From NCBI GenBank assembly GCA_040757085.1, contig JBFLXJ010000003.1:1-55651 (forward strand): 55,651 bases of DNA, read 5' to 3'. The notes beneath the pieces are model-generated. The model was not told the DNA's origin. It searched no databases and saw nothing but the letters and a program-made list of their open reading frames with translations. This document shows, one piece after another, positions 18,333-42,608 of this stretch; the stretch's first letter is position 1; each line of letters starts with the position of its first letter. A program made the position numbers and the translations under genes. The DNA is from Bacillota bacterium. GTDB taxonomy: Bacteria > Bacillota > Sulfobacillia > JACIYH01.

Positions 18333-18496
18333 GGGGATCCTGTGATTCCCTTCCGGCCTGCCGGCTGCCGCAAGGAGGTGGTTGGCAGGTCGGGTCTCTT
18401 GTCCTGAGCAGTCGGCCAGGCTTCCCAACCCAAGCCCCTGTCGATGCGCGGGAACGGGGGCGAAGAATCGATCGGTTCGGGGAAGGAGTGATGAAC

Positions 18497-26523: not shown

Positions 26524-26557
26524 ATAAAAAGGGCTGATCAGCAGAAAGGCCGATCAG
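26524..26557 (-). terminator. intrinsic terminator after the M56 gene
   Basis: On the minus strand a 9-base stem (ctgatcggc / gctgatcag, one G-U pair) with loop ctttct is followed by cccTTTTTAT. It overlaps the M56 stop codon and separates the blaI-M56 transcript from the DUF2318 operon. Confidence 0.7.
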
Positions 26558-27513: not shown

Positions 27514-27515
27514 TT

Positions 27516-27959
27516 CTACTTCCGTTCCTCCGACCGCCTTTCCTCCAACCGCCGACGCCTGATTACCTGCTCCAGTTCCAGCAACCTGGCCTCGTCCTCA
27601 GTCCCCATCCTCTCCACCAGGTGGGAAAATACGGGGCGGGCGAACTCCTCCAGGAGGCCGTCGAGCACCGTCCTGGCCACTCTGTCCATGAAGTCTTCCC
27701 GAGTCAGGGCCGGCCGGTACACGTAATAGTTGCGCTCCTGCTCCCGCTCGAGGAGTCCCTTCTGAGCCAGGCGAGTCATGGTGGTCATCACCGTGGTGTA
27801 GGCGAGGGGGCGCTTACCCGCCAGATGCCCGAGTACGTCCCGCACCGTGACCCGGCCCAGGCGCCAGGCCACCTCCATCACCTCCGCCTCCAGTTCCCCG
27901 AGGACCTTTGTCAGCCCCGTTTCCCGGGGGCGGAATTCGAAGCGAATCTCCCTGCCCAT
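27516..27959 (-). CDS. BlaI/MecI-family transcriptional repressor
   Basis: This 147-residue winged-helix repressor carries LGELEAEVMEVAWRLGRVTV, then VLGHLAGKRPLAYTTVMTTM and LAQKGLLEREQERNYYVYRP, the standard BlaI DNA-binding domain, and a helical dimerisation tail with many Arg/Glu. ATG 27959 is preferred over the GTG at 27977 because the predicted transcript begins only about 20 bases upstream and AAGGGG lies between. A palindromic operator overlaps its own -35 box, so autorepression is expected, as is repression of the second palindrome at 26504. Confidence 0.88.
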   Translation of the reverse strand: MGREIRFEFRPRETGLTKVLGELEAEVMEVAWRLGRVTVRDVLGHLAGKRPLAYTTVMTTMTRLAQKGLLEREQERNYYVYRPALTREDFMDRVARTVLDGLLEEFARPVFSHLVERMGTEDEARLLELEQVIRRRRLEERRSEERK

Positions 27960-27985
27960 CCCTACCAGCCCCTTCACTCCCCTGC

Positions 27986-28179: not shown

Positions 28180-29013
28180 TTACAGCGTGCCTTCGGAGCC
28201 GGCAAGACCCAGGAGAAGGGCACCCCACAGCATGCGGAACGCCTCCAGGTAGCCGGGGGCGGAGATGGCCACCGTCTTCGAGGACACCTTCTTTACCTGA
28301 GGAAACAGCGTAGCGGTGGTGACCGCAGCCGAAGTCTTGAAATCCACCTGGAATTCCACCGGCCCGGCCACCACGTAGGGTTCGATCCGCCCCCGGCTGG
28401 CTACCGCCCGGGCGGCAGCCTCGCGGATCAGTTCCCGCGTGCGGCAGGGAGGCAGGCTGGCACCACTCAGGCGGTCGATGCCGCTCTTCACCGCCACCGT
28501 CTCGATGTCGCCCAGCAGGGCGCGGGCTTCCCGCGTCACCGCCTCGTCACCGGTTACCAGCACCACGGGGACGCCGAAAGCACCCGCTATGGCAGCACTG
28601 ATAGCCGTTTCCCCCACAGGATGGCCGTTGAGTCTCACCTCGTCGACTAACCGCCCGACCAGGGTGTGATTGAGGACGCCCCCGTCCGCCCCCTCCCGGG
28701 AATGGTAGGCCACCAGGAAGGCACAGGCGAACGTCTCGTCGATTCCCTCCATCTGCAGGAGCTGCTTGTTCAGTCCCGAGATAAGGCGGGCCCGAGAATC
28801 CAGTTCCTCCACAAGGATATTGATCATGTTGCCGTGGGCGTCGTTGACCACTACCTCGGTGGCCCCGGCCTGGCAGGCCCCCTCGATGGCTGCGTTCACG
28901 TCCCCCGTCAGCAACTTCCGCATCCTCTGGTATTCGGAACTGGACGCATCCACGTGCGGGCGCACCACCACCCCGGTGGCACCCTCCATATCCGCCGACA
29001 CGTATACCTTCAC
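28180..29013 (-). CDS. dppA: M55 D-aminopeptidase (DppA family)
   Basis: The 277-residue enzyme begins MKVYVSADMEGATGVV, the M55 signature in which Asp and Glu bind zinc, followed by VVVNDAHGNMINI and AFLVAYHSREGADGGVLNHT with conserved His residues. Family members remove N-terminal D-amino acids from short peptides and form large rings. The GTG start has a G-rich ribosome site. It is the last gene of an operon that imports peptides and removes N-acyl groups from D-amino acids, so recycling of D-Ala-containing cell-wall peptides is likely. Confidence 0.9.
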   Translation of the reverse strand: MKVYVSADMEGATGVVVRPHVDASSSEYQRMRKLLTGDVNAAIEGACQAGATEVVVNDAHGNMINILVEELDSRARLISGLNKQLLQMEGIDETFACAFLVAYHSREGADGGVLNHTLVGRLVDEVRLNGHPVGETAISAAIAGAFGVPVVLVTGDEAVTREARALLGDIETVAVKSGIDRLSGASLPPCRTRELIREAAARAVASRGRIEPYVVAGPVEFQVDFKTSAAVTTATLFPQVKKVSSKTVAISAPGYLEAFRMLWGALLLGLAGSEGTL

Positions 29014-29073: not shown

Positions 29074-30816
29074 TCAGCGGGCGAGGATACGGCCCGCGCG
29101 AACCTCGTGCTGCACGCCGTCCTCCACCACCACCTGGCCGTTCACGAGCACCCACCTGATCCCTCTGGGGTAACGCCGGGGTTCCAGGTAGTCACCCCCC
29201 TCGTCGATGACCTCGGGGTCAAACACCACCAGGTCGGCCCAGGCCCCTTCCCGGATGACGCCCCGGTCGTCCAGGCCGAGGACATGTGCGGGTCGCGAGG
29301 TGATGCGGGCGACCCCTTCCTCGAGGGAAGACCCCGCGTAGCGGCGCAGATACCTGGGGAAAACCCCGTAAGTGTTGGGATGGGGCAGGTAGTACGGTGG
29401 ATGGCGAACCTCCCAGTTCTCGTCGAAGATGAAGGTGTCTGTGCATGCCATCGAGCGCGGGTGAGCGAAGAAAACGCGGATGGCCTCCTCCCGGCCCAGC
29501 ATGCCCATCCGTGCCCGCGTGCGCGGATGCCGGCGCACCACGTCGAACAGGGCAGAGAGGGGATCGCCGTCGCGGTCCCGGGCAACGGTGGCCAGGCTCT
29601 TGCCCTCGAGGGAGGCGTCTTCGCACTGGAGGATCACTATGGCCTCCGCCCAGCGGGGATCACTGCGCGGGTTGAGGGAGTACCACCTGCCCGCCTCGAT
29701 GAATTCGCGCACCTCGGCCTCGTAGTCGGGGGCACCCAGCATCTGGGCCAGCCGCTCGGGTGAACCGGCATCCCGCAGCCAGGGGGACAGGAGGGACACC
29801 AGGTACGGAGCGATCACCACTCCCCCGTCGGTGTTGGGGATGACGTCGAAAAAGATGTCCACCCCCTGCTGCAGGCCTTCCTCGAGCACCTCCAGGGTGG
29901 CTTCCGCCACCGCGTTGAACAGGGAAGCCGGCGGGTCGGGGTACACGCGGTATGCCGGCACCAGGTGGGAAACCTGCACCCTCACCCCCGCCTGGCGGCC
30001 GATCTCCACCGCCTCCTTGAGCCCTCGGGCCAGGGCCGGCTGGGGAGTCCCCTTGCGGATACCGGTCCGGCGCCAGTGAGTGGCGTATATCCCCCCGTAC
30101 TCCGAGAGCACGCGGGCCAGTTCCACGATTTCGGACGTCTCCGCATGCCCGCCCGGTTCGTAATCCAGGCCGGTGGACATGCCCCGAGCCCCTTCCTCCA
30201 GCGCGCTCCGGAGGAGTTCCTTCATCGCCGACAGTTCCTCAGGACGGGCCGGACGGGCGTAATCGGAGCCCATGACCACCGTGCGCAGGGCATTGTGACC
30301 CACCAGCGGGACATAATTCACCGCCGGGCGGGCGGCCTCGACCCGCGAAAGGAAGTCCCCGAACGATCGCCAGTCGATATCCAGCCCGTGTCTTTCCCGG
30401 GCCTTCTGGCGCACCACCTCGAGCGGCCGCATGGTTGGCTCGTAATACTTGTAGGGAGCCACCTCGTGCCACCAGTCGAATTCCCAGAACGAAAGTACCC
30501 ACATATGGCCCAGGGGAGCAGGCGAGAACCCGCAGTTACCCCCCACAAAGGTGGTTATCCCCTGCCTCACCGCACTGGGTGCGGAAGGATAAAGGAGCAG
30601 CGTCTCATCACCGTGAGAGTGGATGTCGATAAACCCGGGCGAAATCACCAGACCTGTAGCATCCAGCACGCGGTCCGCCTCCACTCCCTCGGGGAGGGGC
30701 AGCGGCGCCACCGCAGCTATGCGACCTCCGCGTACTCCCACCCAGCCCGGATATCCCCTGCGCCCGGTCCCGTCGACCACCAGTCCGCTCGTAACAATCA
30801 CATCAAAGCGATTCAC
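29074..30816 (-). CDS. N-acyl-D-amino-acid deacylase
   Basis: This 580-residue amidohydrolase-fold enzyme has the D-aminoacylase markers: VSPGF-type metal motif ISPGFIDIHSHGDE, TTFVGGNCGFSPAP, VPLVGHNALRTVVMG, GMSTGLDYEPGGHAE and IYATHWRR. It releases the acyl group from N-acyl-D-amino acids. The GTG at 30816 is chosen because GGGAGGGGG lies 8 bases upstream and the domain begins there; a longer open frame upstream overlaps dppC. It works with DppA to turn D-peptides or acyl-D-amino acids into free D-amino acids. Confidence 0.9.
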   Translation of the reverse strand: MNRFDVIVTSGLVVDGTGRRGYPGWVGVRGGRIAAVAPLPLPEGVEADRVLDATGLVISPGFIDIHSHGDETLLLYPSAPSAVRQGITTFVGGNCGFSPAPLGHMWVLSFWEFDWWHEVAPYKYYEPTMRPLEVVRQKARERHGLDIDWRSFGDFLSRVEAARPAVNYVPLVGHNALRTVVMGSDYARPARPEELSAMKELLRSALEEGARGMSTGLDYEPGGHAETSEIVELARVLSEYGGIYATHWRRTGIRKGTPQPALARGLKEAVEIGRQAGVRVQVSHLVPAYRVYPDPPASLFNAVAEATLEVLEEGLQQGVDIFFDVIPNTDGGVVIAPYLVSLLSPWLRDAGSPERLAQMLGAPDYEAEVREFIEAGRWYSLNPRSDPRWAEAIVILQCEDASLEGKSLATVARDRDGDPLSALFDVVRRHPRTRARMGMLGREEAIRVFFAHPRSMACTDTFIFDENWEVRHPPYYLPHPNTYGVFPRYLRRYAGSSLEEGVARITSRPAHVLGLDDRGVIREGAWADLVVFDPEVIDEGGDYLEPRRYPRGIRWVLVNGQVVVEDGVQHEVRAGRILAR

Positions 30817-30848
30817 CCGCAACCCCCTCCCAGCCCCGAGCCGGGCAC

Positions 30849-31673
30849 TCATGCCTTGAGCCGAGGATCCAGCAGGTCGCGCAACCCGTCCCCGAACAGG
30901 TTGATGCCCAGCACTGCCACCACTATGGCGATACCGGGGAATATATAGAGCCACCAGGCCAGACCCAGCCACTGCCTGCCCGTATTGATCATGGCGCCCC
31001 ACTCGGGCTGGGGGGGCTGTGCTCCCAACCCCAGAAAAGAGAGGGCCGCCCCCATCAGTATGGCGCTGGCGAAGTGCAGGGTACCCAGCACGATGATCGT
31101 GTTTCCGATATTGGGCAGCACGTGTCGCCACAGAATACGCCGGTTGGGCGCCCCCGCAGCGGAAGCTGCTTCCACGAACTCCTTTTCCCGCAGGGGAAGT
31201 ACAGCACTATGCACCACCCGGGCATACCCTGGCAACATGGAGAACACCACCGCCAGCATGGCGTTACGCAGCGACGGACCCAGGATGGCCACAATAACGA
31301 TGGCAAACAGCATGGTGGGAAAGGCCAGCCACAGGTCGACCACCCGGGCGATGAATCCTCCCAGCCGGGGGTAGTAACCCCACAGGATCCCCACCAGGGT
31401 CCCCAGTACGACCGTCAGGACCGTGGCCGTAAGCCCCATGCTGAGGGAAATGCGGGAACCCCACACGATGCGACTGAAGACGTCCCGGCCGAACTCGTCT
31501 GTCCCGCAGAGGTGTCTGACCGACGGGGGCTGCAGGCGGTCCTCGACCCGCATGTCCAGGGGCCCGTAGGGGGCAATGTAGGGAGCCAGGACGGCACAGG
31601 CCACCACCGCCAGGACCATTGCTGCCCCGATCACCATGCCTTTTTGCCTCATGACCCGCCGAAGAGATTTCAT
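30849..31673 (-). CDS. dppC: dipeptide/oligopeptide ABC permease DppC-type
   Basis: The 274-residue permease has an N-terminal helix, the DppC motif HLCGTDEFGRDVFSRIVWGS, and the EAA loop EFVEAASAAGAPNRRILWRH-LP that docks the ATPase. The end (LFGDGLRDLLDPRLK) is diagnostic of DppC. The start overlaps the dppB stop by ATGA. No partner ATPase gene is in this operon. Confidence 0.92.
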   Translation of the reverse strand: MKSLRRVMRQKGMVIGAAMVLAVVACAVLAPYIAPYGPLDMRVEDRLQPPSVRHLCGTDEFGRDVFSRIVWGSRISLSMGLTATVLTVVLGTLVGILWGYYPRLGGFIARVVDLWLAFPTMLFAIVIVAILGPSLRNAMLAVVFSMLPGYARVVHSAVLPLREKEFVEAASAAGAPNRRILWRHVLPNIGNTIIVLGTLHFASAILMGAALSFLGLGAQPPQPEWGAMINTGRQWLGLAWWLYIFPGIAIVVAVLGINLFGDGLRDLLDPRLKA

Positions 31674-32593
31674 GAGGCCTTCACCCGGGGATCCAGGGCC
31701 CCGTATACGAGATCTACCATCAGATTGACCAGCACGAAGGTAGCCGCCACCACCAGTACCCCTCCCTGCACCACGGGGAAGTCGCGGGTGAGGATTCCCT
31801 TCACCACGTAGGAGCCCACTCCAGGCAGGGCAAACACCGTCTCGGTGACAATAGCTCCCCCCAGCAGGTACCCCAGATCCAGCCCCACCATGGTCACCAC
31901 CGGGATCAGGGCATTCTTAAGGGCATGCCGGTACAGCACTGCCCGTTCGGAAAGGCCCTTGGAACGCGCCGTCCGGATGTAATCCTGCCCCAGGACCTCC
32001 AGGAGGCTGGAACGGGTGACGCGGGCAATGTAGGCGGCAGAGAGGATACCCAGCGTGAAGGAAGGCAACACCAGGTGGTAAACCCCCTGGTAACCGCTGA
32101 TGGGAAACCACCCCAGCACGTACCCGAAGAGCCACATCAGGGCCAGGGCCAGCCAGAAGGAGGGCAGCGACATCCCCAGCACCGCCATCGAGGTGGCGAG
32201 GTAATCGGCGGCCGTGCCCCGGCGCACCGCCGCCAGGATGCCCACCGTGACCCCGAGCAGCGCCTCGATGATGAGCGCGTATATGGCAAGTTGCATGGTC
32301 ACCCGATACCTTTGCAGCAACTCCTGTGCCACGGGAACGCCGGTGAGGAGCGACCGGCCCAGGTCCCCGCGGGCAAGGTGAACGAAGAACCGGCCCAGTT
32401 GCATGTGCATGGGCAGGTCCAGGCCCAGCTCGTGGCGCAGCGCCGCCACCGCCTCGGGCGTGGCCCGTTCACCCAGCATCTGCCGTACCGGATCACCCGG
32501 TACCATGTGGATCATCAAAAACACGATAACCGATATACCTAACAGGACCAGGAAACCCTGCCACAGACGGCGAGCAACGTACTGGTAGCGCAG
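31670..32593 (-). CDS. dppB: dipeptide/oligopeptide ABC permease DppB-type, probable CTG start
   Basis: The 307-residue permease shows MIHMVPGDPVRQMLGERATP, the EAA loop DYIRTARSKGLSERAVLYRH and the ending DLVYGALDPRVK, all DppB features. The usual first helix is encoded upstream of the first available GTG: the frame reads RYQYVARRLWQGFLVLLGIS before VIVFLMIHM. The only start that includes it is CTG at 32593, preceded by GGAGG 9 bases away; the next codon upstream of that site but one is a stop. This gives the normal DppB length, so I infer a CTG start. Confidence 0.85.
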   Translation of the reverse strand: MRYQYVARRLWQGFLVLLGISVIVFLMIHMVPGDPVRQMLGERATPEAVAALRHELGLDLPMHMQLGRFFVHLARGDLGRSLLTGVPVAQELLQRYRVTMQLAIYALIIEALLGVTVGILAAVRRGTAADYLATSMAVLGMSLPSFWLALALMWLFGYVLGWFPISGYQGVYHLVLPSFTLGILSAAYIARVTRSSLLEVLGQDYIRTARSKGLSERAVLYRHALKNALIPVVTMVGLDLGYLLGGAIVTETVFALPGVGSYVVKGILTRDFPVVQGGVLVVAATFVLVNLMVDLVYGALDPRVKAS

Positions 32594-32674: not shown

Positions 32675-34255
32675 CTACTTCTCGAGGGAGATGTCGCTAT
32701 ACAGGATTCCTACGAACGGGTTGAAGCGCAGGTCCTTGACCCAGGTGCGCGCCGCCACAAAGCCCTTGCGCACAACCAGGGGCACCCAGGGGGCGCCGTC
32801 CAGGATGAGCCGCTGCGCCTGTTCGTAGTACTGGGCCCGCTCGGCGGCATCGACGGTGGTGCGACCCTTCACCAGAAGCTCGTCCAGTTCGTCGGTGCCC
32901 CAGTGCATGCGCACCCGCCCGCTCTCTTTATGGAACAGGAAGTAGAGGATGTCGGGGTCGCTCCAGCCATACTGCCACAGGATGGACTGGTGCAGGCCCT
33001 TGGGAGTGCCGTCACGGATGGCCGCTTCCTCCATAACCTGGATGTCCAGCTTGGCACCGACGGCGGCCACCTGTTTCTGGATGAGCTGGGCTACCCTCTG
33101 ATCCACCGGGTCGTTGGTGATCCACAGGGAGAACTCAAGGGCCTTGCCGTCCTTCTCCACGATGCCGTCGCCGTTGGTGTCCTTCCAGCCCGCTTCGGCC
33201 AGCACCTGCTTGGCCCGCTCCAGATTGTACCCGTACTCGGACTTAGCCTGTTCTTCCAGGGCCTTGGAGTGGCCGGGGAGGTGGTGCGGCAGCGCGGTGT
33301 ATACGGGAGTAGCGAGGCCGTCGTAGCCCACCCTCGCGATCTCATCCCGGTCGATGGCCAGGTTCATGGCCTGGCGAACCCGAACGTCGTCGAAGGGCCA
33401 CTTCTGGCAGTTGAAACCGAAGTACCGGATGCCGTTCTCGGGGTACTCGACCAGTTGAATATCCTTGTTTTCCTTGAGCTTTGCCACCTGCTGGGGCGGC
33501 ACCGTCAACAGCAGGTCAATGTTACCCTTCTCCAGTTCCAGGATGCGGGTGGCCTCGTCGGGGATGATGCGGAATACCAACTTGTCCACCTTGGGTGCGC
33601 CCTGGTTCTTGTAGAACGGCGGAGCCCATTTGTAGTCGGGATTCTTCTCGAAGACGATCTCCGATCCCCGTGTGTGGGATACGAACTTGAACGGCCCCGC
33701 CCCCACGGGGTGCTGCCCGTAGTCCTCGCCGAACTTCTTGATAGCTTCGGGGGACATGAATGAGGCGAAGGTCTGTGCGAAGGTGGTCCACAGCGAGACG
33801 TCCACCTGGGAACAGGTGAGTTGTACGGTGCGTTCGTCCAGCACCTTGATATCGGCGATGGAACTCACCATCTCGCGGTTAAGTCCCTTGGGGTCGTCCC
33901 GCATGCGCTCGAGCCGGAACTTCACGGCCTCGGCATCCAGCTTGGTACCGTCGTGGAACTTCAACCCCGACTTGAGCTTGAAAGTGATAACCTTGCCATC
34001 GGGGGAGACTTCCCATGACTCGGCCATGCTGGGCACTAACTTCCCGTCGAAGTCGATGGCCACCAGACCGTAATCATAGAGCACGAAGAACGGATCCTCG
34101 ATCCAGGTGGTGCGGTCAATGTCAAAGGTCGCGGGATCATTGACGATCCCCACTCTGAGCACCTTTTCCTGCTGAGCCGGCCGGGACCCGCAACCGGCAA
34201 GCAACAGGCTGAAGACCAGGGCCACCACCACCGCACCGGTAGCAAATCTCTTCAT
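32675..34255 (-). CDS. peptide-binding lipoprotein, SBP family 5 (DppA/OppA type)
   Basis: The 526-residue protein starts MKRFATGAVVVALVFSLLLAGC, a classic lipoprotein signal, and has family-5 motifs LVPSMAESWEVSPDGKVITF, LKSGLKFHDGTKLDAEAVKF and PVGAGPFKFVSHTRGSEIVF. The ATG is preceded by AAGGAGG at 8-10 bases. It is the first gene of the D-peptide operon and delivers substrate to DppBC; the ligand is inferred from the D-amino-acid enzymes downstream. A terminator isolates it from the nucleobase operon upstream. Confidence 0.92.
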   Translation of the reverse strand: MKRFATGAVVVALVFSLLLAGCGSRPAQQEKVLRVGIVNDPATFDIDRTTWIEDPFFVLYDYGLVAIDFDGKLVPSMAESWEVSPDGKVITFKLKSGLKFHDGTKLDAEAVKFRLERMRDDPKGLNREMVSSIADIKVLDERTVQLTCSQVDVSLWTTFAQTFASFMSPEAIKKFGEDYGQHPVGAGPFKFVSHTRGSEIVFEKNPDYKWAPPFYKNQGAPKVDKLVFRIIPDEATRILELEKGNIDLLLTVPPQQVAKLKENKDIQLVEYPENGIRYFGFNCQKWPFDDVRVRQAMNLAIDRDEIARVGYDGLATPVYTALPHHLPGHSKALEEQAKSEYGYNLERAKQVLAEAGWKDTNGDGIVEKDGKALEFSLWITNDPVDQRVAQLIQKQVAAVGAKLDIQVMEEAAIRDGTPKGLHQSILWQYGWSDPDILYFLFHKESGRVRMHWGTDELDELLVKGRTTVDAAERAQYYEQAQRLILDGAPWVPLVVRKGFVAARTWVKDLRFNPFVGILYSDISLEK

Positions 34256-34350
34256 CAGTCCGATCCTCCTTCGCGGCAACCAGTCCAATGCTCCTCGTAC
34301 TGACCCCCCGTAAACAGTCGAGTGTGCTGCGCACGACACCCCCCCTCCGG

Positions 34351-34479: not shown

Positions 34480-35904
34480 CTACCCCGCGGTGGAACGCAG
34501 ACCGGGAGAAGGCCTCAGGTAGTCGATGCCAGTGCGGGCGGAAGCACGGCGCACCATCTCGCGGGAAACCCTCGTGGCCTCCCTGGCCACCTCCCGCTCG
34601 TCGCCCATCCCCACCAGGCGCCCGTGCTCCAACACCACCCGTCCGTTCACGATCACCGTATCCACCGGACCGGGGCCGGTAGCCACCACCGCCACCACCG
34701 GATCTTCCGCGGTGCCGGCGAATTCCAACCGTCCCAGATCGATGAGGATCATGTCCGCGGCCATGTCCACGTCCAGGTAACCGATGTCGTCGCGGCCCAG
34801 GACGGCTGCCCCGCCCGCGGTGGCCAGGTAAAGCACCTCCTCTGACGAAAGACCCCGATCCGCCAGGGCCAGCTTCTGAAGGAGATACGCGACCCTGATT
34901 TCTCCCCACATGCCGGAACTGTCGTTACTGGCGCTGCCGTCCACCGCCAGCCCCACCCGGGCCCCGGCCTCCAGCAGATCCCTCACCCGGCATATGCCCG
35001 AGGCGAGTTTCATGTTGGACACAGGGCAGTGCGCCACCCCGGTACGGGTCTCTCCCAGCAGCCGCACTTCCCGGTCATCCAGGTGGATGGCATGGGCGAA
35101 CCACACGTCCGGGCCCAACCATCCCAGCGACTCTACGTATGCCACGGGCCGGCACCCGAATTTCTCCAGGCAGAAACGTTCTTCGTCCCGGGTCTCGGCA
35201 AGATGGGTGTGCAGGAGAACGCCCCGGGAGCGCGCCAGTCCCGCCGCTTCCCTCATCAGGCGCGGAGTGACAGAGAAGGGGGAACAGGGCGCCAGCGCCA
35301 GGCGGCACATGGAGTACCGCGCGGGATCGTGGTGGCGGTCCAGCAGGCGCTCGCAATCGGCAAGTATGGCGTCTTCGTCCTGTACCACCTCATCGGGGGG
35401 AAGGCCGCCCCGGCTGCGTCCCAGGGACATGCTGCCCCGGGTGGGATGAAACCTGATCCCCAGTTGCCGGGCCGCCTCGATTTCGGCCTCGATGAAGCCC
35501 TCCGCGCGGCATCGCGGAAACACGTAGTGGTGGTCGGTGGAAGTGGTGCACCCGCTCTTCAACAGTTCTCCCAACCCCACCAGCGCGCCCAGGTACACCG
35601 CCTCCGGGGTGATTTCCCGCCAGATCTCGTACAGGGTGACCAGCCAGGGAAACAGGGGGACATCCTGTACCGCCGGGATGGCCCTGGTCAGGGTCTGGTA
35701 AAGGTGGTGATGGGTATTCACGAACCCCGGCAAAACCACCATTCCGGAAGCATCGATGACCCGGTCTACCTCCTCCCCTTCCCCGGCCCCCCTGCCCAGG
35801 GCGGCAATGCGGCACCCGTCGATGAGCACGTTTCCGCCCCGTATGCGCTCCCGGCGGGGATTCATGGTTACGATCCAATCCGCATTCCTGATGAGCATTT
35901 TCAT
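34480..35904 (-). CDS. 8-oxoguanine-deaminase-like amidohydrolase
   Basis: This 474-residue zinc-dependent deaminase reads VVLPGFVNTHHHLYQTLTRA, FPWLVTLYEIWREITPEAVY, CTTSTDHHYVFPR, HTHLAETRDEERFCLEKFG, HCPVSNMKLASGICRVRDLL and AVDGSASNDSSGMWGE. This motif set matches 8-oxoguanine deaminases and AtzB-like chlorohydrolases rather than guanine deaminase. The ATG at 35904 follows GAGGGGG. It is the last gene of the nucleobase operon and would turn 8-oxoguanine to urate, or deaminate a related ring; the exact substrate is not provable by eye. Confidence 0.82.
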   Translation of the reverse strand: MKMLIRNADWIVTMNPRRERIRGGNVLIDGCRIAALGRGAGEGEEVDRVIDASGMVVLPGFVNTHHHLYQTLTRAIPAVQDVPLFPWLVTLYEIWREITPEAVYLGALVGLGELLKSGCTTSTDHHYVFPRCRAEGFIEAEIEAARQLGIRFHPTRGSMSLGRSRGGLPPDEVVQDEDAILADCERLLDRHHDPARYSMCRLALAPCSPFSVTPRLMREAAGLARSRGVLLHTHLAETRDEERFCLEKFGCRPVAYVESLGWLGPDVWFAHAIHLDDREVRLLGETRTGVAHCPVSNMKLASGICRVRDLLEAGARVGLAVDGSASNDSSGMWGEIRVAYLLQKLALADRGLSSEEVLYLATAGGAAVLGRDDIGYLDVDMAADMILIDLGRLEFAGTAEDPVVAVVATGPGPVDTVIVNGRVVLEHGRLVGMGDEREVAREATRVSREMVRRASARTGIDYLRPSPGLRSTAG

Positions 35905-36023
35905 CCTGGCGTTCCCCCTCACCAGCCAAGGAAGATACTCGCCGGCCCCGTCCACGTTGGTTCGCCCAACCGCAGAAAGTGCAGGAGGGCGGCGGAGCAC
36001 CCCCCGGGCCTGCCGGCAGTCAA

Positions 36024-37121
36024 TCAGAGCGGGACATCAAGGGCCCGGTAGGCCGCGAGCAGGTTGGCGGCGCTCACACCCTCGGGCAACAGCCCGGAGG
36101 AGCATCCCACCACCAGCCCCCCCTCCCTTGCTGCCCGGGCCAGGCGAACGGCCTCCCGTTCGACTTCCTCCCGGGTGCCACGGCTGAGCAGGTCCACCGA
36201 GAGGCCCCCCAGCAGGCCCAACCGCCCCCGGTAAGCGGTGACCAGGGCAGCGGCGTCCATGCCTGCCTCTGGCTCCAGGGAATGGAGGCCGTCGAAGCCC
36301 GCCTCCCTGATTACAGGTATGAGTGGTTCTACCCGGCCGTCGCTGTGAAACACGAGCAGGGGCCTTTCGCCGCGCAGGGTTCGCACCGCCCCGCAGCGGT
36401 CCACCACTTCCCGCCAGAGCGGCCACAAGTGCTCACGGATCAGCCGGGGGGACAGCAGCAGGCCATCAGTGTAAGCCACGTCTTCCCCCAGCACGATCCC
36501 ATCGGCGCCCGCCTCCAACGCCTGACCCACCTGGGCCAGCACCCGGTCCAGCTGTAGGAACCATAACCCCTCGACCTCCACCGGAAACTCGCCGCCCGGT
36601 CCTGCCCACCGGTCCGCCCCACATGCCCCGGCGGACGGGTCTCCCCGGCCCGTGTGGTGGTCGCCCGCGGCGGCCCCGGCCAGCAACATGATGGCCTGCG
36701 ACCATCCCAGGGCTCCGGCCAGCCCCTGCCAGGGCCCATCCACCAGGGCCCACACGAAGAGGTCGCGGCTCGACCAGTATGCCACCTCCCGCAGCCAGGG
36801 CACACCTGGCACGGCGGCAAAATCCGCGTCCGGCGCGCACTCACCGCTGGCCGCGCACCCGGCGTGCGACCCCAGCTCCCCCGCTACCACGCCCACCATG
36901 TCAGCCCCCAGGCACCGAATGGCGGCTTCCTCGACCTGCCACCTCTCCGGCCCCTCCTGGGGAACGTCGCCCGGCTTCCGACCCGCCAGGGCGGCCACCA
37001 GTGGCGGAGCGAGCTTGAACTCCCCCCGCGGTACCCGGTCGGGAGGACAGCCGGCAAGGGCCATCCGCACCCGCTCGTAACCTGTCAGGGGGCCAGAGCC
37101 AGCATCCGCCGGGCACGCCAC
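36024..37121 (-). CDS. URO-D-like protein (uroporphyrinogen decarboxylase / methyltransferase fold)
   Basis: The 365-residue protein has YERVRMALAGCPPDRVPRGE at the start, a long middle barrel, and the C-terminal LLVFHSDGRVEPLIPVIREA-GFDGLHSLEP motif of the URO-D superfamily. In this subgroup the fold often serves as a corrinoid-linked methyltransferase (MtaA/CmuA type) rather than in heme synthesis. The GTG at 37121 overlaps the previous gene by 37 bases and has AAGGTG 7 bases upstream. Its role in a nucleobase operon is unknown. Confidence 0.75.
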   Translation of the reverse strand: MACPADAGSGPLTGYERVRMALAGCPPDRVPRGEFKLAPPLVAALAGRKPGDVPQEGPERWQVEEAAIRCLGADMVGVVAGELGSHAGCAASGECAPDADFAAVPGVPWLREVAYWSSRDLFVWALVDGPWQGLAGALGWSQAIMLLAGAAAGDHHTGRGDPSAGACGADRWAGPGGEFPVEVEGLWFLQLDRVLAQVGQALEAGADGIVLGEDVAYTDGLLLSPRLIREHLWPLWREVVDRCGAVRTLRGERPLLVFHSDGRVEPLIPVIREAGFDGLHSLEPEAGMDAAALVTAYRGRLGLLGGLSVDLLSRGTREEVEREAVRLARAAREGGLVVGCSSGLLPEGVSAANLLAAYRALDVPL

Positions 37122-38092
37122 AGTTCGTCACCTTCCGGAGGAACGATGGGGATACGGGCCCCCTCCCTGAGCAACCATCTCCCCTCCCGGGTGAGGCACC
37201 CCACCACCGCGGCCCGGATGCCGGCCCCCCGCAGGGCGTCCAGCAGAGGCTCCGGGTCGGGCACCGCCACCAGCAGCGAACCGCTGGAAACCAGGCGCAG
37301 GGGGTCTATCCCAAGCGCCCTGCAAATGGCATCCACCTCCGGCGGCACGGGCACCGCATCCGCGCGGACCTCCACTCCCAACCCGGTGGGGTGAACCATC
37401 TCCCAGACCGCTCCCAGCACCCCTCCCTCGGTGACGTCGTGCATGCAGGTAGCCCCGCAACCTACGGCGATCCTCGCCTCCGGGACCACGCTCAGGGACT
37501 CAAACAGGGACTGAGCACGGGCCAGGGTTTGGGCGGAAACCAGAGAGGCCAGTTCATTCGGGAAATCCGCGGCCAGTACCGCCGCCCCTTCGATGCCGGC
37601 TCCCTTGGTAAGCACCAGGGCATCACCCGGCCGCGGCCCGGTGGGCAACTGATAGCCGGGCCAGGGTTGCCCCAGGGCCGCCACGCACGCCAGGGGGGCA
37701 GGCAAGCCCGGCACCAGCTCTGTGTGCCCGCCGGCAATGGCCACGTTCAGCTTCTGACAGACCCCGTCTGCCTCGCTCATGAAGCGGGCCACGTACTCCT
37801 CACCAAATTCCGCGGGTACCAGCAGCGTGATGGCGACGGCCACCGGCTCTGCCCCCGCCGCGGCCAGGTCGTTACAGGCCACCTGGATACAGAGTTCCCC
37901 CACACGGGTGCTGCCCCCCGTGATGGGGTCCACCGAAATGACGCAGATGCCGCCGCCCAGGCGGAGAACGGCCGCATCCACCCCGATACCTGATCCCCGG
38001 ACCACCTCCGGGCGCCTGGCACCCTGGTGACTCAAGACCAGCTTTTCCAGGATTGCCGGAGGTAGCTTGCCCCCCGCCGGCGCGCGACTCAC
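37085..38092 (-). CDS. AIR-synthase-family (PurM/HypE-like) ATP-binding protein
   Basis: This 335-residue protein has the AIR-synthase fold marks: GSGIGVDAAVLRLGG, NDLAAAGAEPVAVAITLLVP, VAIAGGHTEL, GDALVLTKGAGIEGAAVLA and CMHDVTEGGVLGAVWEM. The lack of a Cys near the N-terminus argues against SelD, and it most resembles HypE-like uncharacterised members. GTG 38092 overlaps the preceding stop by GTGA. It would activate a substrate carbonyl or carboxyl with ATP; the substrate is unknown. Confidence 0.8.
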   Translation of the reverse strand: MSRAPAGGKLPPAILEKLVLSHQGARRPEVVRGSGIGVDAAVLRLGGGICVISVDPITGGSTRVGELCIQVACNDLAAAGAEPVAVAITLLVPAEFGEEYVARFMSEADGVCQKLNVAIAGGHTELVPGLPAPLACVAALGQPWPGYQLPTGPRPGDALVLTKGAGIEGAAVLAADFPNELASLVSAQTLARAQSLFESLSVVPEARIAVGCGATCMHDVTEGGVLGAVWEMVHPTGLGVEVRADAVPVPPEVDAICRALGIDPLRLVSSGSLLVAVPDPEPLLDALRGAGIRAAVVGCLTREGRWLLREGARIPIVPPEGDELWRARRMLALAP

Positions 38093-39132
38093 CTGCGTAA
38101 CCCCCCCTCACGACCGAGCAAGACCAGCAGGCGCTTGCCCGCCTCCCGACAGTTCTGCACCAGTGCCTCGATGGCGGCGGGGTCGGCCCCCTCCAGGTGC
38201 ACCCCGGCCACGCCCACCACGGGAGAGCGGGTGACCCGGGCCAGCTCCTCTCCCAGGGGGCGGATCACTTCTTCCTCTTTGTGGGCCGGGAGGCTGATCA
38301 CCGAAGAGGTCGAGCTGTACCTGCCCGGTTCCGCCAGGCTGGGCCGCGGGATGCTCACCACGACCGTGCCCACGTGGGGACGGTCGCCCCCGAAAAGCCC
38401 GATCACGTAACCATCATCGGTGCCCCAGGCACGGGCGCAAACCCGGAAGCGACCTTCCCCGGCCCAGGCCTCCCACTGCCCCAGCCGGTTGCCTGTGACA
38501 TCCTCACCCGGCCCTTCCGGCTCGGCCTTACCGTGAGCGGTCAGAGCAGGGGTGAAGGGGGCCGGGAAGGGGCAGGCATCCGCGCTTTCGGCCCTCCAGC
38601 GCCGGGATAATCCGTGGGAGACTCCCAGGTGATCGAGGATTCGCCCCACCGTGTGATCCACCAGGTCACTCACGGATGCGGGCCGGATGTAGAAGGCGGG
38701 GGCGGGGGGCATGACCACCACCCCCAGGCGCGCCAGCCGCAGCAGATTCTCCAGGTGGATGGCGCTGAGCGGGGTTTCCCGGGGCAGTATGATCAAATGC
38801 CGGCGCTCCTTGAGGCAAACATCAGCCGCCCGGGTGATGAGATCGCCCGAGAAACCGTGGGCGATGGCGGCCACCGTCTTCATGCTGCAGGGCACCACCA
38901 CCATCCCGTCAACCGGGAAGCTGCCGCTGGCTACGGGCGCGGTGAGATCGTCGGGAGCGTACACGTGCGCAGCCATGTCCCTCAATTGCTCGGGCTCGAG
39001 GCCCATTTCCTCCCTGAGGGTCTGCGCACCCCAGCGGCTGACGATCAGGTGGGTTTCCACCCGGGCCTGCCGCAGCACCTCGAGCAGCCTCACAGCGTAC
39101 ACCGCTCCCGAAGCTCCCGTGACGGCCACTAT
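38089..39132 (-). CDS. UbiX flavin prenyltransferase fused to an LpdD-like domain
   Basis: Residues 1-190 or so are UbiX: IVAVTGASGAVYAVRLLEVL, SGSFPVDGMVVVPCSMKTVA, ICLKERRHLIILPRETPLS-like, and MPPAPAFYIRPASVSDLVDH with the final VGRILDHLGV. Residues about 215-347 match LpdD-type prenylated-flavin chaperones: YVIGLFGGDRPHVGTVVVSI, LPAHKEEEVIRPLGEELARV and VAGVHLEGADPAAIEALVQN. Separate UbiX and LpdD proteins support UbiD-family decarboxylases such as gallate decarboxylase. No ubiD-like gene is in the window. A GTG at 39132 (GGGGAAGG 9 bases upstream) is preferred; TTG 39138 is possible. Confidence 0.85.
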   Translation of the reverse strand: MVAVTGASGAVYAVRLLEVLRQARVETHLIVSRWGAQTLREEMGLEPEQLRDMAAHVYAPDDLTAPVASGSFPVDGMVVVPCSMKTVAAIAHGFSGDLITRAADVCLKERRHLIILPRETPLSAIHLENLLRLARLGVVVMPPAPAFYIRPASVSDLVDHTVGRILDHLGVSHGLSRRWRAESADACPFPAPFTPALTAHGKAEPEGPGEDVTGNRLGQWEAWAGEGRFRVCARAWGTDDGYVIGLFGGDRPHVGTVVVSIPRPSLAEPGRYSSTSSVISLPAHKEEEVIRPLGEELARVTRSPVVGVAGVHLEGADPAAIEALVQNCREAGKRLLVLLGREGGLRR

Positions 39133-39276
39133 CACTCGCAATTGCCTTCCCCCATTGACATCGTTTCGACCTGGTGCGGCTTCCATCCTCGTCCCACCCG
39201 GCCCGAACCGGGCCCCCGGCCCAACGACGGAGAACCCGGACCGCCTTGCCGCTACCTGGCGCGCACGTACCCCCTG

Positions 39277-40623
39277 CTAGTAGCGCTGCCAGAGGGCGCG
39301 CGCCAGTTCGCGGGAGCGGGCCAGGATCGCCTCCTCATCCACGGTCTGGAACGTACGGTCACGCATAAGGATGCGTCCCCCTACCATGACGGTAACCACC
39401 GCCGACCCGGGTACCCCGTATATCAGGTGGCCCATGTAGTTGGTCTCCTCCAGGGGGGTGAATGGCCGGTAGTCCACCAGGATGATGTCAGCGAATCCTC
39501 CCTCGGTGATCTGCCCCAGGGCACGCTCCCAGTAACGGCGGGCCAGGCGGGCGTTGTTCACCCAGGTGATACGGCGCACATCTTCGCCGCCCACAACCCG
39601 CGGGTCGGCCCGACCCAGGCGGGCAACCATGACCGTGAGATTCGCCTCCCGCCACATGTCGAGGAACCCGTCCCCGCCCAGCACCACATTCACCCCGGCC
39701 CCGAGCAGGTCGGGCACCGGGGAGCTACCCACCGCATTGTTCATGTTGGACTGCGGGTTGTGAGCCACCGTGCACCCGCACTCCCGGAGAATGGCGATCT
39801 CCTCCTCACCCACCAGGACGCAGTGGGCGGCGATGCTACTCTCCCCCAGCACGCCTGCTTCCGCCAGGCGACGGACGGGATGCTTTCCGAACTGCCGCAC
39901 GGTCTCGGCCACGTCCGCTTCCCCTTCGGCGACGTGGACGTGGAATCCCGCCCCCAGGCTGTTACCAATCTCGGAGGCCTCCCGCAGGGTTCCCTCCCCC
40001 ACGGTGAAGGAAGCATGGAGTCCGAAGGCACCCCTCAGCAGCGATCCGCCTTCTCGGCGGCAACGCTCGATGAAGCGGCGGTTCTCTTCCAGCCCCCGGC
40101 GGGCTATGGCCGGCCCATCCCGGTCGGACACCTCGTAACACAGGCAGCCCCTCACCCCCATCTCGGTGAAGGCGCGCGCCACCTGGTCCAGGCTCCCCTC
40201 GCAGGCGTACGGGCTGGCGTGGTGATCGAACAGGGTGGTCACCCCGTGCCGGACGGCTTCCAGCAACCCCGCCATCGACTGGTAGTAATTATCCTCCGGC
40301 GTGAGGGCTTTGTCGAGCCGCCACCACAGTCGCTCCAGGATCTGGCGGAAGCCGGCAGCCGGTTCTCCCCGACCAGGGATGCCACGCGCCCACTGGCCGT
40401 AGAGGTGGGTGTGCCCAGTCACGAACCCGGGCAGGATAAGCATCCCGCGGGCATCCAGAAACGGCACCTCCGGGTAGCGGGCGCGGAGAGTGGCGGTCGA
40501 CCCTACCTCTTTTACCAGTTCCCCTTCCACCAGCACCGCTCCATCGGAGAAAAACCGGTTGACCTCTTCCATGGTGATGAGGACCCCATTTCCCACCAGT
40601 GTTCTCGCCTTGGCGCCTTTCAC
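39277..40623 (-). CDS. ssnA: aminohydrolase SsnA
   Basis: The 448-residue amidohydrolase follows SsnA closely: ILPGFVTGHTHLYGQWARGI, LWWRLDKALTPEDNYYQSMA, TLFDHHASPYACEGSLDQVA, HVHVAEGEADVAETVRQFGK, HNPQSNMNNAVG and the end RDRTFQTVDEEAILARSREL. SsnA is encoded with selenium-dependent molybdenum hydroxylase and hydantoinase genes in enterobacteria and clostridia, in purine breakdown. The GTG at 40623 has AAAGGAGG upstream. It lies 36 bases after the hydantoinase gene. Confidence 0.88.
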   Translation of the reverse strand: MKGAKARTLVGNGVLITMEEVNRFFSDGAVLVEGELVKEVGSTATLRARYPEVPFLDARGMLILPGFVTGHTHLYGQWARGIPGRGEPAAGFRQILERLWWRLDKALTPEDNYYQSMAGLLEAVRHGVTTLFDHHASPYACEGSLDQVARAFTEMGVRGCLCYEVSDRDGPAIARRGLEENRRFIERCRREGGSLLRGAFGLHASFTVGEGTLREASEIGNSLGAGFHVHVAEGEADVAETVRQFGKHPVRRLAEAGVLGESSIAAHCVLVGEEEIAILRECGCTVAHNPQSNMNNAVGSSPVPDLLGAGVNVVLGGDGFLDMWREANLTVMVARLGRADPRVVGGEDVRRITWVNNARLARRYWERALGQITEGGFADIILVDYRPFTPLEETNYMGHLIYGVPGSAVVTVMVGGRILMRDRTFQTVDEEAILARSRELARALWQRY

Positions 40624-40659
40624 GTCCGTCTCCTCCTTTCGCCTCGCCCTCCCGGCCAC

Positions 40660-42102
40660 TCATGTCGCCGCCCCGGATGCGCGTACTCCCACGTAAAGGC
40701 CACGCCCGGCCCCGCCGCAGAACTCACCTTCCTCCAGGACCACTTCCCCTCGCGAAATCACGATCCGTGGCCACCCTTTGAGCTCCCATCCCTCGTAAGG
40801 AGACCAACCCAGCACCGCCGCCAGGCCCTCGGCGCCCACTTCCACGCGCCGCGTGACTTTGGGATCCACGAGGACGAGGTCGGCATCGGCTCCGGGAAGC
40901 AAATTCCCTTTGCGGGGGTAGAGACCAAAGGCGCGGGCAGCAGCGGTACTGGTGATTTCCACCAGCCGGGACAGGGGGATGCGCCCCGAGTGCACGCCCA
41001 GGGTATACGTCAGGGGCAGGATGGTCTCGAAGCCAGGCAGGCCCCCGGGGACGTGGAGGAAATCCCGGGCCCTGTCCTTCTGCCCGGCGCTGAGGGCACA
41101 GTGGTCCGTGCCCAGGAAGTGTACCTCGCCGGTGGCTATCCCCCGCCACAGGGCGTCCTGATCCTCTTTTTTCCGCAGGGGCGGGCTGGCGATGAAACGG
41201 TGACCGTCCCGCCGACCGTATACCGACTCGTCGAGGGCCAGGTAGTGGGGGGCGGTTTCCACCCATACCTCGCTGATGCAGTGTCCCCCGGCACCCGGCG
41301 AAGCCCCCCTGGCAGGTGCCGCCCTCATCAACGCCTCGCGGGCAGCCGCGACCGCTGCCAACCCCGCCCCGCTGGACAGGTGCCGGATGCATACGTGCGC
41401 ACCCGCCAGACCCGCCAGGGTAAGCACCCGGCAGACGGCTTCTGCCTCTGCCACCGTCGGCCGGGAGTGCGGAAACCAAACTGCCTCCAGATGTCCGGCT
41501 GCCTGAAGCCGCGCCGTCTGCGATTCCACTATGGCAGCCGATTCGGCGTGGACGGTAGCCAGGGCTCCCGCCTGCCCGATGGCATCCAGGCAGGCCAGCA
41601 GAGACCGGTCGTCCAGCCCCAGACCCGGGTACACCATGTAAAGCTTGAACGAACGCACCCCGCGTTGAACCAGGAGGGGTACCTCGGCCAGGGCATCAGG
41701 ATCGGCCGAACTCAGAGTCACGCTGAACAGGTAGTCTACCACCGCCCGGCCCTCGGCCTGAGCCATCCTTTCCGCCAGGGCCGCGCCGGGCGACTGACCG
41801 GGCCTCGGCTCGGCAAAATCTATCACCGTGGTGATGCCCCCGCGGGCCGCCGCCACCGTGCCTGTGAAGAAATCATCACAGGTCGCCGTGCCGTCTGCCA
41901 GAGGCAGCGATATGTGGACGTGAGGATCGATGAGGCCCGGTAGTACCACCAGGCCGCGGGCATCCACCACCTTCGCCGCCCCCGAAGCGCCCAGGTTCCC
42001 CAGGGCCACGACCAGTCCGCCCCGCACGCCCACGTCGATTTCGCCCCAATCCCCAGGTCCGAATACCCGTCCGCCCCGCACCACCAGGTCAAATCCGCCC
42101 AT
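40660..42102 (-). CDS. hydA: dihydropyrimidinase / hydantoinase-type cyclic amidohydrolase
   Basis: This 480-residue enzyme has VVLPGLIDPHVHISLPLADG (HxH metal motif), the carboxylated-Lys context VRSFKLYMVYPG, VWVETAPHYLALDESVYG, HFLGTDHCALSAGQK and the typical ending strands for ring hydrolases (dihydropyrimidinase, hydantoinase, allantoinase). The CxxD after TATCDDF is unusual. It is the first gene of the nucleobase operon and follows rnpB and its terminator. The substrate may be a hydantoin, dihydropyrimidine or an opened purine ring. Confidence 0.85.
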   Translation of the reverse strand: MGGFDLVVRGGRVFGPGDWGEIDVGVRGGLVVALGNLGASGAAKVVDARGLVVLPGLIDPHVHISLPLADGTATCDDFFTGTVAAARGGITTVIDFAEPRPGQSPGAALAERMAQAEGRAVVDYLFSVTLSSADPDALAEVPLLVQRGVRSFKLYMVYPGLGLDDRSLLACLDAIGQAGALATVHAESAAIVESQTARLQAAGHLEAVWFPHSRPTVAEAEAVCRVLTLAGLAGAHVCIRHLSSGAGLAAVAAAREALMRAAPARGASPGAGGHCISEVWVETAPHYLALDESVYGRRDGHRFIASPPLRKKEDQDALWRGIATGEVHFLGTDHCALSAGQKDRARDFLHVPGGLPGFETILPLTYTLGVHSGRIPLSRLVEITSTAAARAFGLYPRKGNLLPGADADLVLVDPKVTRRVEVGAEGLAAVLGWSPYEGWELKGWPRIVISRGEVVLEEGEFCGGAGRGLYVGVRASGAAT

Positions 42103-42180: not shown

Positions 42181-42212
42181 AAAATAGCGCGGGCCCTTGC
42201 GGACCCGCGCCT
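42181..42212 (-). terminator. terminator of rnpB
   Basis: A perfect stem gcgcgggtcc / gggcccgcgc-type (one G-U) with loop gcaa is followed on the minus strand by TATTTTA. It immediately follows the 3' end of the RNase P RNA. Confidence 0.8.
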
Positions 42213-42217
42213 GCTTG

Positions 42218-42608
42218 CGGTGAGCAGGTCTGTAAGCCGAATTCTGTGCCCCCGGAGCCGGCCGCACCGGCTACCGGAGCGGCAACCATCCGTCTGGGAC
42301 CCCGGTCACCCGGGGCCTCAAGCGACCTAACCCGGGGAGTCCGCGGGCCACATCATCCTCCCCCTACTTGGTCTTGCTCCGGGTGGGGTTTACCTAGCGA
42401 GCCGGTCGCCCGGCCCCTGGTGGTCTCTTACACCACCGTTGCACCCTTGCCGTTCGGACTGTCGCCCTCCCGGCGGTTTCTTTCTGTGGCACTATCCCTG
42501 GGGTCGCCCCCGCTGGACGTTATCCAGCACCCTGCCCTTTGGAGTTCGGACTTTCCTCGAGCACGACCTCGCGGTCACCTGTGCTCGCAGTTGCCCGACC
42601 TGCTCTTT
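42218..42608 (-). ncRNA. rnpB: RNase P RNA, bacterial type
   Basis: On the minus strand the 5' part carries GAGGAAAGTCCGAACTCC and the 3' part ACAGAATTCGGCTTA, the universally conserved P4-region halves of bacterial RNase P RNA. The ends pair as GAGCAGGTC with GACCTGCTC (helix P1), which sets the borders to within a few bases. The length of about 390 bases and the internal ACAGAAAGAAACCGCC and GGTAAACCCC segments fit a type A RNA. It is followed by a strong terminator and preceded by a promoter-like TTGACG-17-TAACCT. Confidence 0.95.

Follow-up and report, generated by a model that had tools for sequence, protein, structure and literature searches.

The 55,651-nucleotide stretch analyzed here (the window) belongs to genome G000, which was compared with two congeners, G001 and G002. 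Family identities were assigned with curated profile models (TIGR/NF and Pfam) and their score cut-offs, gene orders in the congeners were obtained by tblastn and a window-trained gene caller, and genome-wide absences come from searches across the genome set. As the preliminary description had proposed, six open reading frames with operon-like spacing lie on the minus strand. They specify a HyuA-like D-hydantoinase/dihydropyrimidinase (HYD, 40660..42102; TIGR02033), the aminohydrolase SsnA (39277..40659; NF005540, TIGR03314), a UbiX flavin prenyltransferase fused to an LpdD-like domain (38089..39186; TIGR00421, PF02441, PF21758), an AIR-synthase-superfamily protein with the HypE/ThiL/SelD fold (AIRS, 37085..38092; PF00586 plus PF02769), a URO-D-fold, MtaA-like protein (36024..37121; AlphaFold model compared with 4ay8), and an 8-oxoguanine deaminase-like amidohydrolase (OGD, 34480..36000, probable start 35904; NF006055). 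The HYD and SsnA frames abut, 90 bp separate SsnA from UbiX, UbiX-LpdD and AIRS overlap by 4 bp, and AIRS overlaps the URO-D-like frame by at most 37 bp.

The operon-like run extends on the same strand past these six genes to position 28180. This extension encodes an oligopeptide-type ABC transporter, made up of a peptide/nickel-type SBP_bac_5 substrate-binding protein (SBP, 32675..34339; PF00496) and DppB/OppB-type (31670..32524; PF00528) and DppC/OppC-type (30849..31673; PF00528, PF12911) permeases, followed by a D-aminoacylase-like PF07969 amidohydrolase (NDACYL, 29074..30852) and, as the last gene, a DppA-like M55 D-aminopeptidase (28180..29013; PF04951). The peptide-type transporter, the D-aminoacylase, and the M55 peptidase are also compatible with D-amino acid or peptide scavenging. 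Upstream, rnpB (RNase P RNA, 42217..42606, minus strand; RF00010, 276 bits) directly precedes HYD, with a terminator-like hairpin, called by a pattern scan only, in between (42186..42211, minus strand). Riboswitches ahead of HYD, purine-type or other, were rejected, as none was found and rnpB occupies that place.

HYD reaches 406 bits with TIGR02033 (cut-off 393) in the profile search and aligns end to end with the D-hydantoinase 4kqn, the HxH, K, H, H, and D metal-ligand positions being visible. SsnA exceeds both of its cut-offs (NF005540, 494 versus 444 bits; TIGR03314, 482 versus 455.5 bits) and is conserved in multiple alignment A1. OGD scores 639 bits with the 8-oxoguanine deaminase equivalog NF006055 (cut-off 532), and its nearest PDB entries are 7ww2, titled 8-oxoguanine deaminase, and 3hpa. 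The D-aminoacylase-like protein, best matched in the PDB by 1rjq (D-aminoacylase) and then by 3gip/3giq, belongs to the family of the C. difficile pathway enzyme UacY.

UbiX-LpdD consists of a UbiX domain (about residues 17-198; TIGR00421, 264 versus 109 bits, plus the PF02441 match; nearest PDB entries PAD1 6qlg and UbiX 6m8v) and a C-terminal LpdD-like, putative prFMNH2 chaperone domain (about residues 244-354; PF21758, 96 versus 27 bits). LpdD is a prFMNH2 chaperone that acts with UbiX (PMC10865409). The window protein shares with that system a UbiX domain and an LpdD-type (proteasome-assembly-chaperone-like) domain, but here the two are fused in one polypeptide and no UbiD gene is adjacent. 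It is the only UbiX detected in G000, whose single UbiD (C2:21321-22766) sits beside an MqnP-like UbiA prenyltransferase. One UbiD per genome occupies this position in all three congeners; no MqnC above the cut-off, and hence no full menaquinone pathway, was found in these three genomes.

AIRS has the fold and domains of the HypE/ThiL/SelD/PurM superfamily (AlphaFold pLDDT 92; best PDB matches HypE 3wjp/3vyt, TM 0.75-0.77) but falls below every equivalog cut-off (82 versus 252 bits for HypE), and its C terminus, RRMLALAP, lacks the HypE-type Cys. Homologues occur in most class members in other contexts, often adjoining an ECF S component, and across 101 genomes AIRS shows a negative association with UbiX (11/24/54/12). 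A role for AIRS as a prFMN enzyme (e.g., a dimethylallyl-phosphate kinase) was discarded because of this negative association and its presence in most class members without UbiX.

No Pfam family matches the URO-D-like protein, and its match to the curated MtaA family is weak (E 6.5e-6; 26 versus 235 bits, below the cut-off); the best PDB match to its AlphaFold model (pLDDT 84) is MtaA 4ay8 (E 1.1e-12, TM 0.66/0.70). It resembles MtaA/URO-D-fold corrinoid methyltransferases in fold and in the neighborhoods of its relatives, which usually adjoin the CH3-THF:corrinoid methyltransferase (MeTr) and/or RACo. It differs from them in an HSDG motif in the family alignment, i.e., HxD in place of the MtaA HxC Zn motif, and in the surroundings of the window copy: no corrinoid protein or MeTr lies next to the operon, the MeTr copies of G000 being on other contigs. 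The corrinoid chemistry initially tied to this protein is right for its relatives. The corrinoid activator (RACo) at 16067, also thought to be related to the operon, lies about 17 kb away among immediate neighbors that are not corrinoid-methyltransferase genes, and was rejected as a partner of the URO-D-like gene.

The entire run occurs in identical order in G001 (HYD-SSNA-UbiX/LpdD-AIRS-UROD-OGD-SBP-DppB-DppC-NDACYL-M55), with proteins 56-90% identical, so that this arrangement is not a product of chance. The order does vary within the genus, as its parts are found at three separate places in G002. There, CTaseA-CK-CTaseB-HYD-SsnA-OGD-PALP are contiguous on one strand, so that the purine genes adjoin a carbamate kinase (CK), two carbamoyltransferases (CTases), and PLP lyases; UbiX-LpdD, AIRS, and the URO-D-like gene are not among them, and ubiX-lpdD plus AIRS lie elsewhere, directly behind rnpB. 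At 80 SsnA loci from other genomes, the co-occurring genes are those for XDH (28), PALP (21), PreA/UacX (20), CTase (15), OGD (10), and HYD (9); UbiX and UbiD are each found once, and LpdD, AIRS, and URO-D-like genes never. In class relatives the composition is that of the known pathway, with YgeY-YgeW-HYD-XDH-OGD-PreT-PreA-XDH-SsnA in G045 and OGD-PreT-PreA-XDH-SsnA in G026. Hence, the six-gene order is not peculiar to one strain, recurring in G001, but it is absent from G002 and the 80 other SsnA loci. The proposal that AIRS, URO-D-like, and UbiX parts share one route with the hydrolases is not supported as first put, the parts being separable.

This route was at first regarded as possibly undescribed. 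Its core no longer is, because SsnA and HyuA open the rings in the reductive uric-acid pathway, which was published in 2025 together with the biochemistry of SsnA, HyuA, YgeW/UacY, and YgfK/UacX (PMC12507026). The corresponding E. coli/C. difficile cluster comprises xdhD, ygfK or uacX, ssnA, hyuA, ygeW or uacY, yqeA, ygeY, and ygeX (PMC12507026). As in that cluster, SsnA stands together with a HyuA-type hydantoinase at the operon, and G000 has carbamoyltransferase, carbamate kinase, a UacX-like DHO_dh with Fer4, PALP lyase candidates, and the UacY-family enzyme. These purine partners, along with adenine deaminase, MTAP, a permease, and a BMP-type transporter, support the original assignment of the three amidohydrolases to anaerobic purine breakdown. 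Several of them reside in a locus conserved in the genus, CTaseA-CK-CTaseB-Fd-AOR-ThiS-AOR-UacX-AOR (C11 in G000), which includes three AOR-family, tungsten-type enzymes. The UacX-like protein encoded there (L137:679-1932), outside the operon, scores 179 versus 335 bits with the PreA equivalog, and the two carbamoyltransferases score 176 and 134 bits, below the YgeW cut-off of 500. The carbamate kinase neighboring the G002 purine genes is above the ArcC cut-off and has a homologue in G000. PALP1 of G000 (L138:9520-10806) scores as a threonine synthase and reaches 71 versus 276 bits with the diaminopropionate-lyase model.

The genus departs from the E. coli/C. difficile cluster in several respects: it has a second carbamoyltransferase, its UacX locus also encodes AOR-family enzymes, its genes are distributed among several loci, and UbiX-LpdD, AIRS, and URO-D-like genes are interposed in the operon. 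It also lacks two enzymes. An XDH-family protein (XdhD/XdhA homolog, PF01315) is encoded in none of the three congeners, a search with an XdhA query being negative as well, but is present in all three relatives with SsnA/OGD clusters. The YgeY equivalog is likewise missing from the three congeners, with best scores of 123-141 bits (G000/G002) and 109 bits (G001) against a cut-off of 321.5, whereas the controls G045 and G089 reach 490-498 bits. Two steps of the published pathway are therefore left without their canonical enzymes.

The locus is ordinary in kind; in layout we interpret it as probably a mosaic of two modules, one of reductive uric-acid/8-oxopurine hydrolases and one for housekeeping prenyl-FMN supply, together with a relocated URO-D-like gene. 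HYD, SsnA, and OGD, perhaps with the UacY-like D-aminoacylase, would provide the hydrolytic part of an oxygen-independent pathway. In the predicted order of reactions, OGD would convert 8-oxoguanine to uric acid, SsnA would ring-open the reductively dearomatized 2,8-dioxopurine (yanthine), and HYD would open the hydantoin ring of ureidomethyl-hydantoin to give 2,3-diureidopropionate. Removal of the two ureido groups may then fall to the two carbamoyltransferases together with the carbamate kinase of the C11 locus, with a gain of ATP; alternatively, the UacY-like enzyme may act on one of the groups. The final step would belong to a PLP lyase. UbiX-LpdD with AIRS would form the second module, a housekeeping supply of prenyl-FMN for the sole UbiD in its menaquinone-type locus; a rearrangement next to rnpB would have joined it to the first. 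This single UbiD beside the MqnP-like gene accounts better for the single UbiX than does the ring-degradation role first proposed for it. The URO-D-like gene would be a relocated member of the corrinoid methyltransferase family, and it and AIRS are putative passengers with respect to purine breakdown. An odd six-gene string is thus turned into a testable statement on hydrolases of the reductive uric-acid pathway, whose other neighbors were probably brought in by rearrangement. It also advises caution, since co-localization within a single genome should not be read as a pathway.

Judged from its gene content, G000 appears to use a form of the reductive uric-acid pathway in which two of the usual enzymes are missing, and this XDH-free variant is probably new. 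A tentative possibility, which we hold with clearly less confidence than the mosaic reading, is that throughout the genus at least one AOR-family enzyme replaces XdhD and the second carbamoyltransferase replaces YgeY. This rests on the absence of XDH and YgeY from all three congeners, the conserved AOR-UacX locus, an independent locus in G046 (Fd-AOR-CK-YgeY-YgeW-UacX-HyuA) without XDH, which was looked for in two G046 loci only, and the distribution of carbamoyltransferases: YgeY is missing from 4 of 4 SsnA loci with two of them but present at 12 of 14 loci with a single carbamoyltransferase (Fisher p 0.005, kinship ignored). The class is rich in AOR paralogs (58 of 154 genomes, with many copies), and therefore their adjacency to UacX could be fortuitous. 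Among the hits listed by a literature search, none was relevant to AOR or tungsten in purine breakdown. The AOR enzymes might reduce uric acid to 2,8-dioxopurine or deliver low-potential electrons to the UacX-like dearomatase. With a second carbamoyltransferase in place of YgeY, both ureido groups would yield carbamoyl phosphate and hence ATP. If so, tungsten-type AOR enzymes would perform a step so far needing a molybdenum enzyme, the two-carbamoyltransferase version would save more ATP per purine, and the range of reactions known from anaerobic purine breakdown would widen, with a possible function for orphan AOR-family proteins.

The xanthinase pathway uses a prenyl-FMN-dependent, UbiD-type 4-aminoimidazole-5-carboxylate decarboxylase. 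UbiX-LpdD might owe its operon position, kept in both G000 and G001, to serving a UbiD-family decarboxylase that acts on a carboxylated purine fragment in this or another branch. G046 lends some substance to this idea, with UbiX - SsnA-like - YgeY-like - PALP2 - UbiD - PALP1 - ferredoxin - AOR on one strand, as do the Desulfosporosinus loci L183 and L187, in one of which UbiD and in the other UbiX is encoded within about 10 kb of SsnA. The operon, however, contains no UbiD, UbiX-LpdD is detached from the purine genes in G002, and LpdD is absent from the 80 SsnA loci, with UbiX and UbiD at one locus each, which makes the idea unlikely. The G046 arrangement nevertheless leaves some probability to the prenyl-flavin link to purine operons first suggested. 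The xanthinase (Rabinowitz) pathway is itself a form of anaerobic purine breakdown (summarized in PMC12507026), but HYD, SsnA, and OGD are consistent with the reductive one, and the xanthinase pathway was rejected as the reason for UbiX because the only UbiD adjoins the MqnP-like UbiA in all congeners.

Somewhat less probable still is the scavenging of hydantoins, D-amino acids, or D-peptides, in which the transporter would import substrates, HYD would form N-carbamoyl-D-amino acids, and the D-aminoacylase and M55 enzymes would finish their degradation. The D-hydantoinase family membership of HYD and the downstream genes conserved in G001 agree with such a function, but it leaves SsnA and OGD without a role, in G002 HYD-SsnA-OGD group with carbamate kinase and carbamoyltransferases, and class-wide the three genes co-occur with XDH and PreA-type genes. 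The identical order and overlapping frames in G000 and G001, and the association of URO-D-like relatives with MeTr and RACo, would suit one six-gene ring-degradation route, with AIRS using ATP to activate a ring amide, and demethylation of methylpurines by the URO-D-like protein via a corrinoid protein. We regard it as the most improbable of these proposals, given the absence of the order from G002 and the other SsnA loci, the separate contexts of AIRS and its negative correlation with UbiX, and the lack of a corrinoid protein or MeTr beside the operon.

The mosaic reading draws further on the rnpB junction. An RF00010 search and blastn comparison of junctions placed rnpB of G002 at L033 9425-9807, abutting ubiX-lpdD without hyd-ssnA in between. 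No rnpB was found near the other UbiX loci scanned for an outgroup to polarize the rearrangement, and the difference could therefore equally reflect an insertion in G000/G001 or a loss in G002. The joining of the modules may itself be under selection, since G000 and G001 keep the order intact despite the divergence of their proteins.

All six ORFs of the run lie on the minus strand of the window at 34480-42102, the span given in the preliminary description, and their arrangement is kept in the congener G001; coding sequence, spacing, and this conservation make a chance origin unlikely. A family scan placed the D-hydantoinase (HYD), SsnA, and the 8-oxoguanine deaminase (OGD) above their cut-offs and recognized a UbiX with a C-terminal PF21758 domain (UbiX-LpdD). 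The AIR-synthase superfamily (AIRS-like) protein stayed under every equivalog cut-off, and the URO-D-like protein had no Pfam match and a weak MtaA match. Top PDB matches of their AlphaFold models (pLDDT 92 and 84) were HypE (3wjp/3vyt, TM 0.75-0.77) and MtaA (4ay8, TM 0.66/0.70), respectively. Past OGD, the run goes on with SBP_bac_5, DppB, DppC, a D-aminoacylase-like PF07969 protein, and an M55 D-aminopeptidase. Downstream of the operon (26554-27977), the gene for a BlaI-type repressor adjoins one for an M56/M48 BlaR-like peptidase; FtrD-like and MacB/FtsX transporter genes come next. A c-di-GMP-I-GGC riboswitch (18251-18335, 67.9 bits) precedes ORF 18488-19606(+).

The earlier reading that the amidohydrolases point to purine or hydantoin breakdown is supported for purines, but the route is not undescribed at its ring-opening steps, which are published (PMC12507026). 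In this reductive pathway for uric acid, reduction by XdhD gives 2,8-dioxopurine, YgfK or UacX dearomatizes this product, and SsnA and HyuA carry out the ring openings. One ureido group is then taken off by YgeW together with carbamate kinase, or by UacY, and the other by YgeY; YgeX yields pyruvate (PMC12507026). By sequence, SsnA and the HyuA-type hydantoinase are the predicted ring-opening enzymes of this pathway. Gene orders in class relatives agree with it: YgeY-YgeW-HYD-XDH-OGD-PreT-PreA-XDH-SsnA (G045), OGD-PreT-PreA-XDH-SsnA (G026), and GlyA-HYD-YgeW-XDH-SsnA (G028). The congener G002 carries, on one strand of locus L110, PALP2-PALP1-GlyA-carbamoyltransferase A-carbamate kinase-carbamoyltransferase B-HYD-SsnA-OGD-PALP2-PALP1, PALP being PLP lyase candidates. 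Across 80 SsnA loci from named genomes, neighbors were XDH (28/80), PALP (21/80), PreA/UacX (20/80), carbamoyltransferase and YgeY (15/80 each), carbamate kinase (13/80), OGD (10/80), and HYD (9/80), all lower bounds since many loci are incomplete or divergent.

Contig C11 of the window's genome (L136:12440-19999 and L137:3-9126) carries genes for a purine permease, adenine deaminase, SAH hydrolase, MTA phosphorylase, and an amidohydrolase, then carbamoyltransferase A, carbamate kinase, carbamoyltransferase B, ferredoxin, AOR1 (AOR family, tungsten type), ThiS/Fe-S, AOR2, a UacX-like DHO_dh with Fer4, AOR3, and a BMP-type nucleoside transporter; the stretch from carbamoyltransferase to AOR3 is kept in both congeners, G001 and G002. 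In draft assemblies of 97-99% estimated completeness, neither PF01315 (XDH family) nor the YgeY equivalog was found in the three congeners (0/3 each); the former occurs in G026, G045, and G028, the latter in G045 and the control G089. YgeY is missing from 4/4 SsnA loci with two carbamoyltransferases (L179, L204, L216, and L110) and present in 12/14 with one (one of the two exceptions is cut by a contig end), statistics that ignore kinship among the related two-carbamoyltransferase Chloroflexota loci. A second carbamoyltransferase may replace YgeY. Because XDH is missing in the genus, AORs are kept in the carbamoyltransferase/UacX-like locus, and G046, from another family, also has AOR and UacX-like genes in one run (C21, L265:331-10035: Fd-AOR-oxidoreductase-carbamate kinase-YgeY-YgeW-UacX-like-HyuA, with no XDH within the fetched stretch), the comparison suggests that enzymes of the AOR family may take the place of XdhD; caution is due mainly because AOR paralogs abound in the class. 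In all three congeners, Asp replaces the first cluster-binding Cys of AOR1 (ADFACAQRC; L136:16159-18024), a residue kept in AOR2 and AOR3. The AOR1 sequence matches benzoyl-CoA reductase chain 4z3w; BamB is an AOR-family dearomatizing enzyme.

From identities, gene order, partners, and absences, we infer every reaction step of the following scheme. OGD would convert 8-oxoguanine to uric acid, a candidate AOR would reduce this to 2,8-dioxopurine, and the UacX-like protein would dearomatize it. SsnA and then HYD would open the rings, the carbamoyltransferases would strip the ureido groups with ATP gain, or the UacY-like enzyme would do so, and a PLP lyase would act last. The scheme assigns no step to the AIRS-like or the URO-D-like protein.

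ALTERNATIVES. An operon for D-peptide/hydantoin scavenging would be consistent with the genes downstream of OGD, but SsnA, OGD, and the G002 arrangement do not fit it. Prenyl-FMN may also act inside purine breakdown, since a one-strand run in G046 (C23, L266:3960-14418) joins UbiX, SsnA-like, YgeY-like, PALP2, UbiD, PALP1, ferredoxin, and AOR genes, apparently a prenyl-FMN decarboxylase within a purine-type operon. The xanthinase pathway uses a prenyl-FMN-dependent decarboxylase. UbiX-LpdD is the single UbiX match of the window's genome, with one clear UbiX copy each in G001 and G002, and the three genomes share one UbiD, present once in each. The neighbor of this UbiD is a UbiA (top model MqnP, 355 bits versus a cut-off of 430), and G001 and G002 also have a UbiE-type methyltransferase close by. 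This fits a menaquinone-type use, although no MqnC above cut-off was found, which counts against it. LpdD is a chaperone that binds prFMNH2 (PMC10865409). Most likely, UbiX-LpdD serves the genome's single UbiD.

The proposal that the AIRS-like, URO-D-like, and UbiX-LpdD parts join the hydrolases in one route is not supported by the neighborhood survey, where LpdD, AIRS, and URO-D-like genes were in 0/80 SsnA loci. The AIRS-like family is present in 65/101 relatives (E<=1e-30), in several cases alongside an ECF S component; none outside the genus was seen beside UbiX, and the two are negatively associated across the 101 relatives in a statistic that ignores phylogeny. URO-D-like proteins occur in 22/154 class genomes, and close relatives usually adjoin a CH3-THF:corrinoid methyltransferase and/or the corrinoid activator RACo. 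All aligned members have HxDG (HSDG or HCDG) where MtaA has HxCG. The G001 operon copy (L032:7296-8510) bears a repetitive low-complexity insertion of WWEDADS repeats mid-protein. The RACo-type activator of the window (16067-17662) has no detected N-terminal ferredoxin domain and no corrinoid methyltransferase genes alongside.

The operon is immediately preceded by rnpB (RNase P RNA; 42217-42606), which shares its strand. In G002, permease, ATPase, and NPCBM genes diverge from rnpB-ubiX-lpdD-AIRS (L033: rnpB at 9425-9807, UbiX homology from 9915), whereas in the window and G001 HYD-SsnA comes next after this flank and rnpB, and UbiX-LpdD-AIRS only after that. In two congeners, therefore, the hyd-ssnA block separates ubiX from rnpB; in the third, G002, it adjoins OGD in the carbamoyltransferase cluster. 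A putative IS-like gene follows AIRS in G002 (L033 12144-13409).
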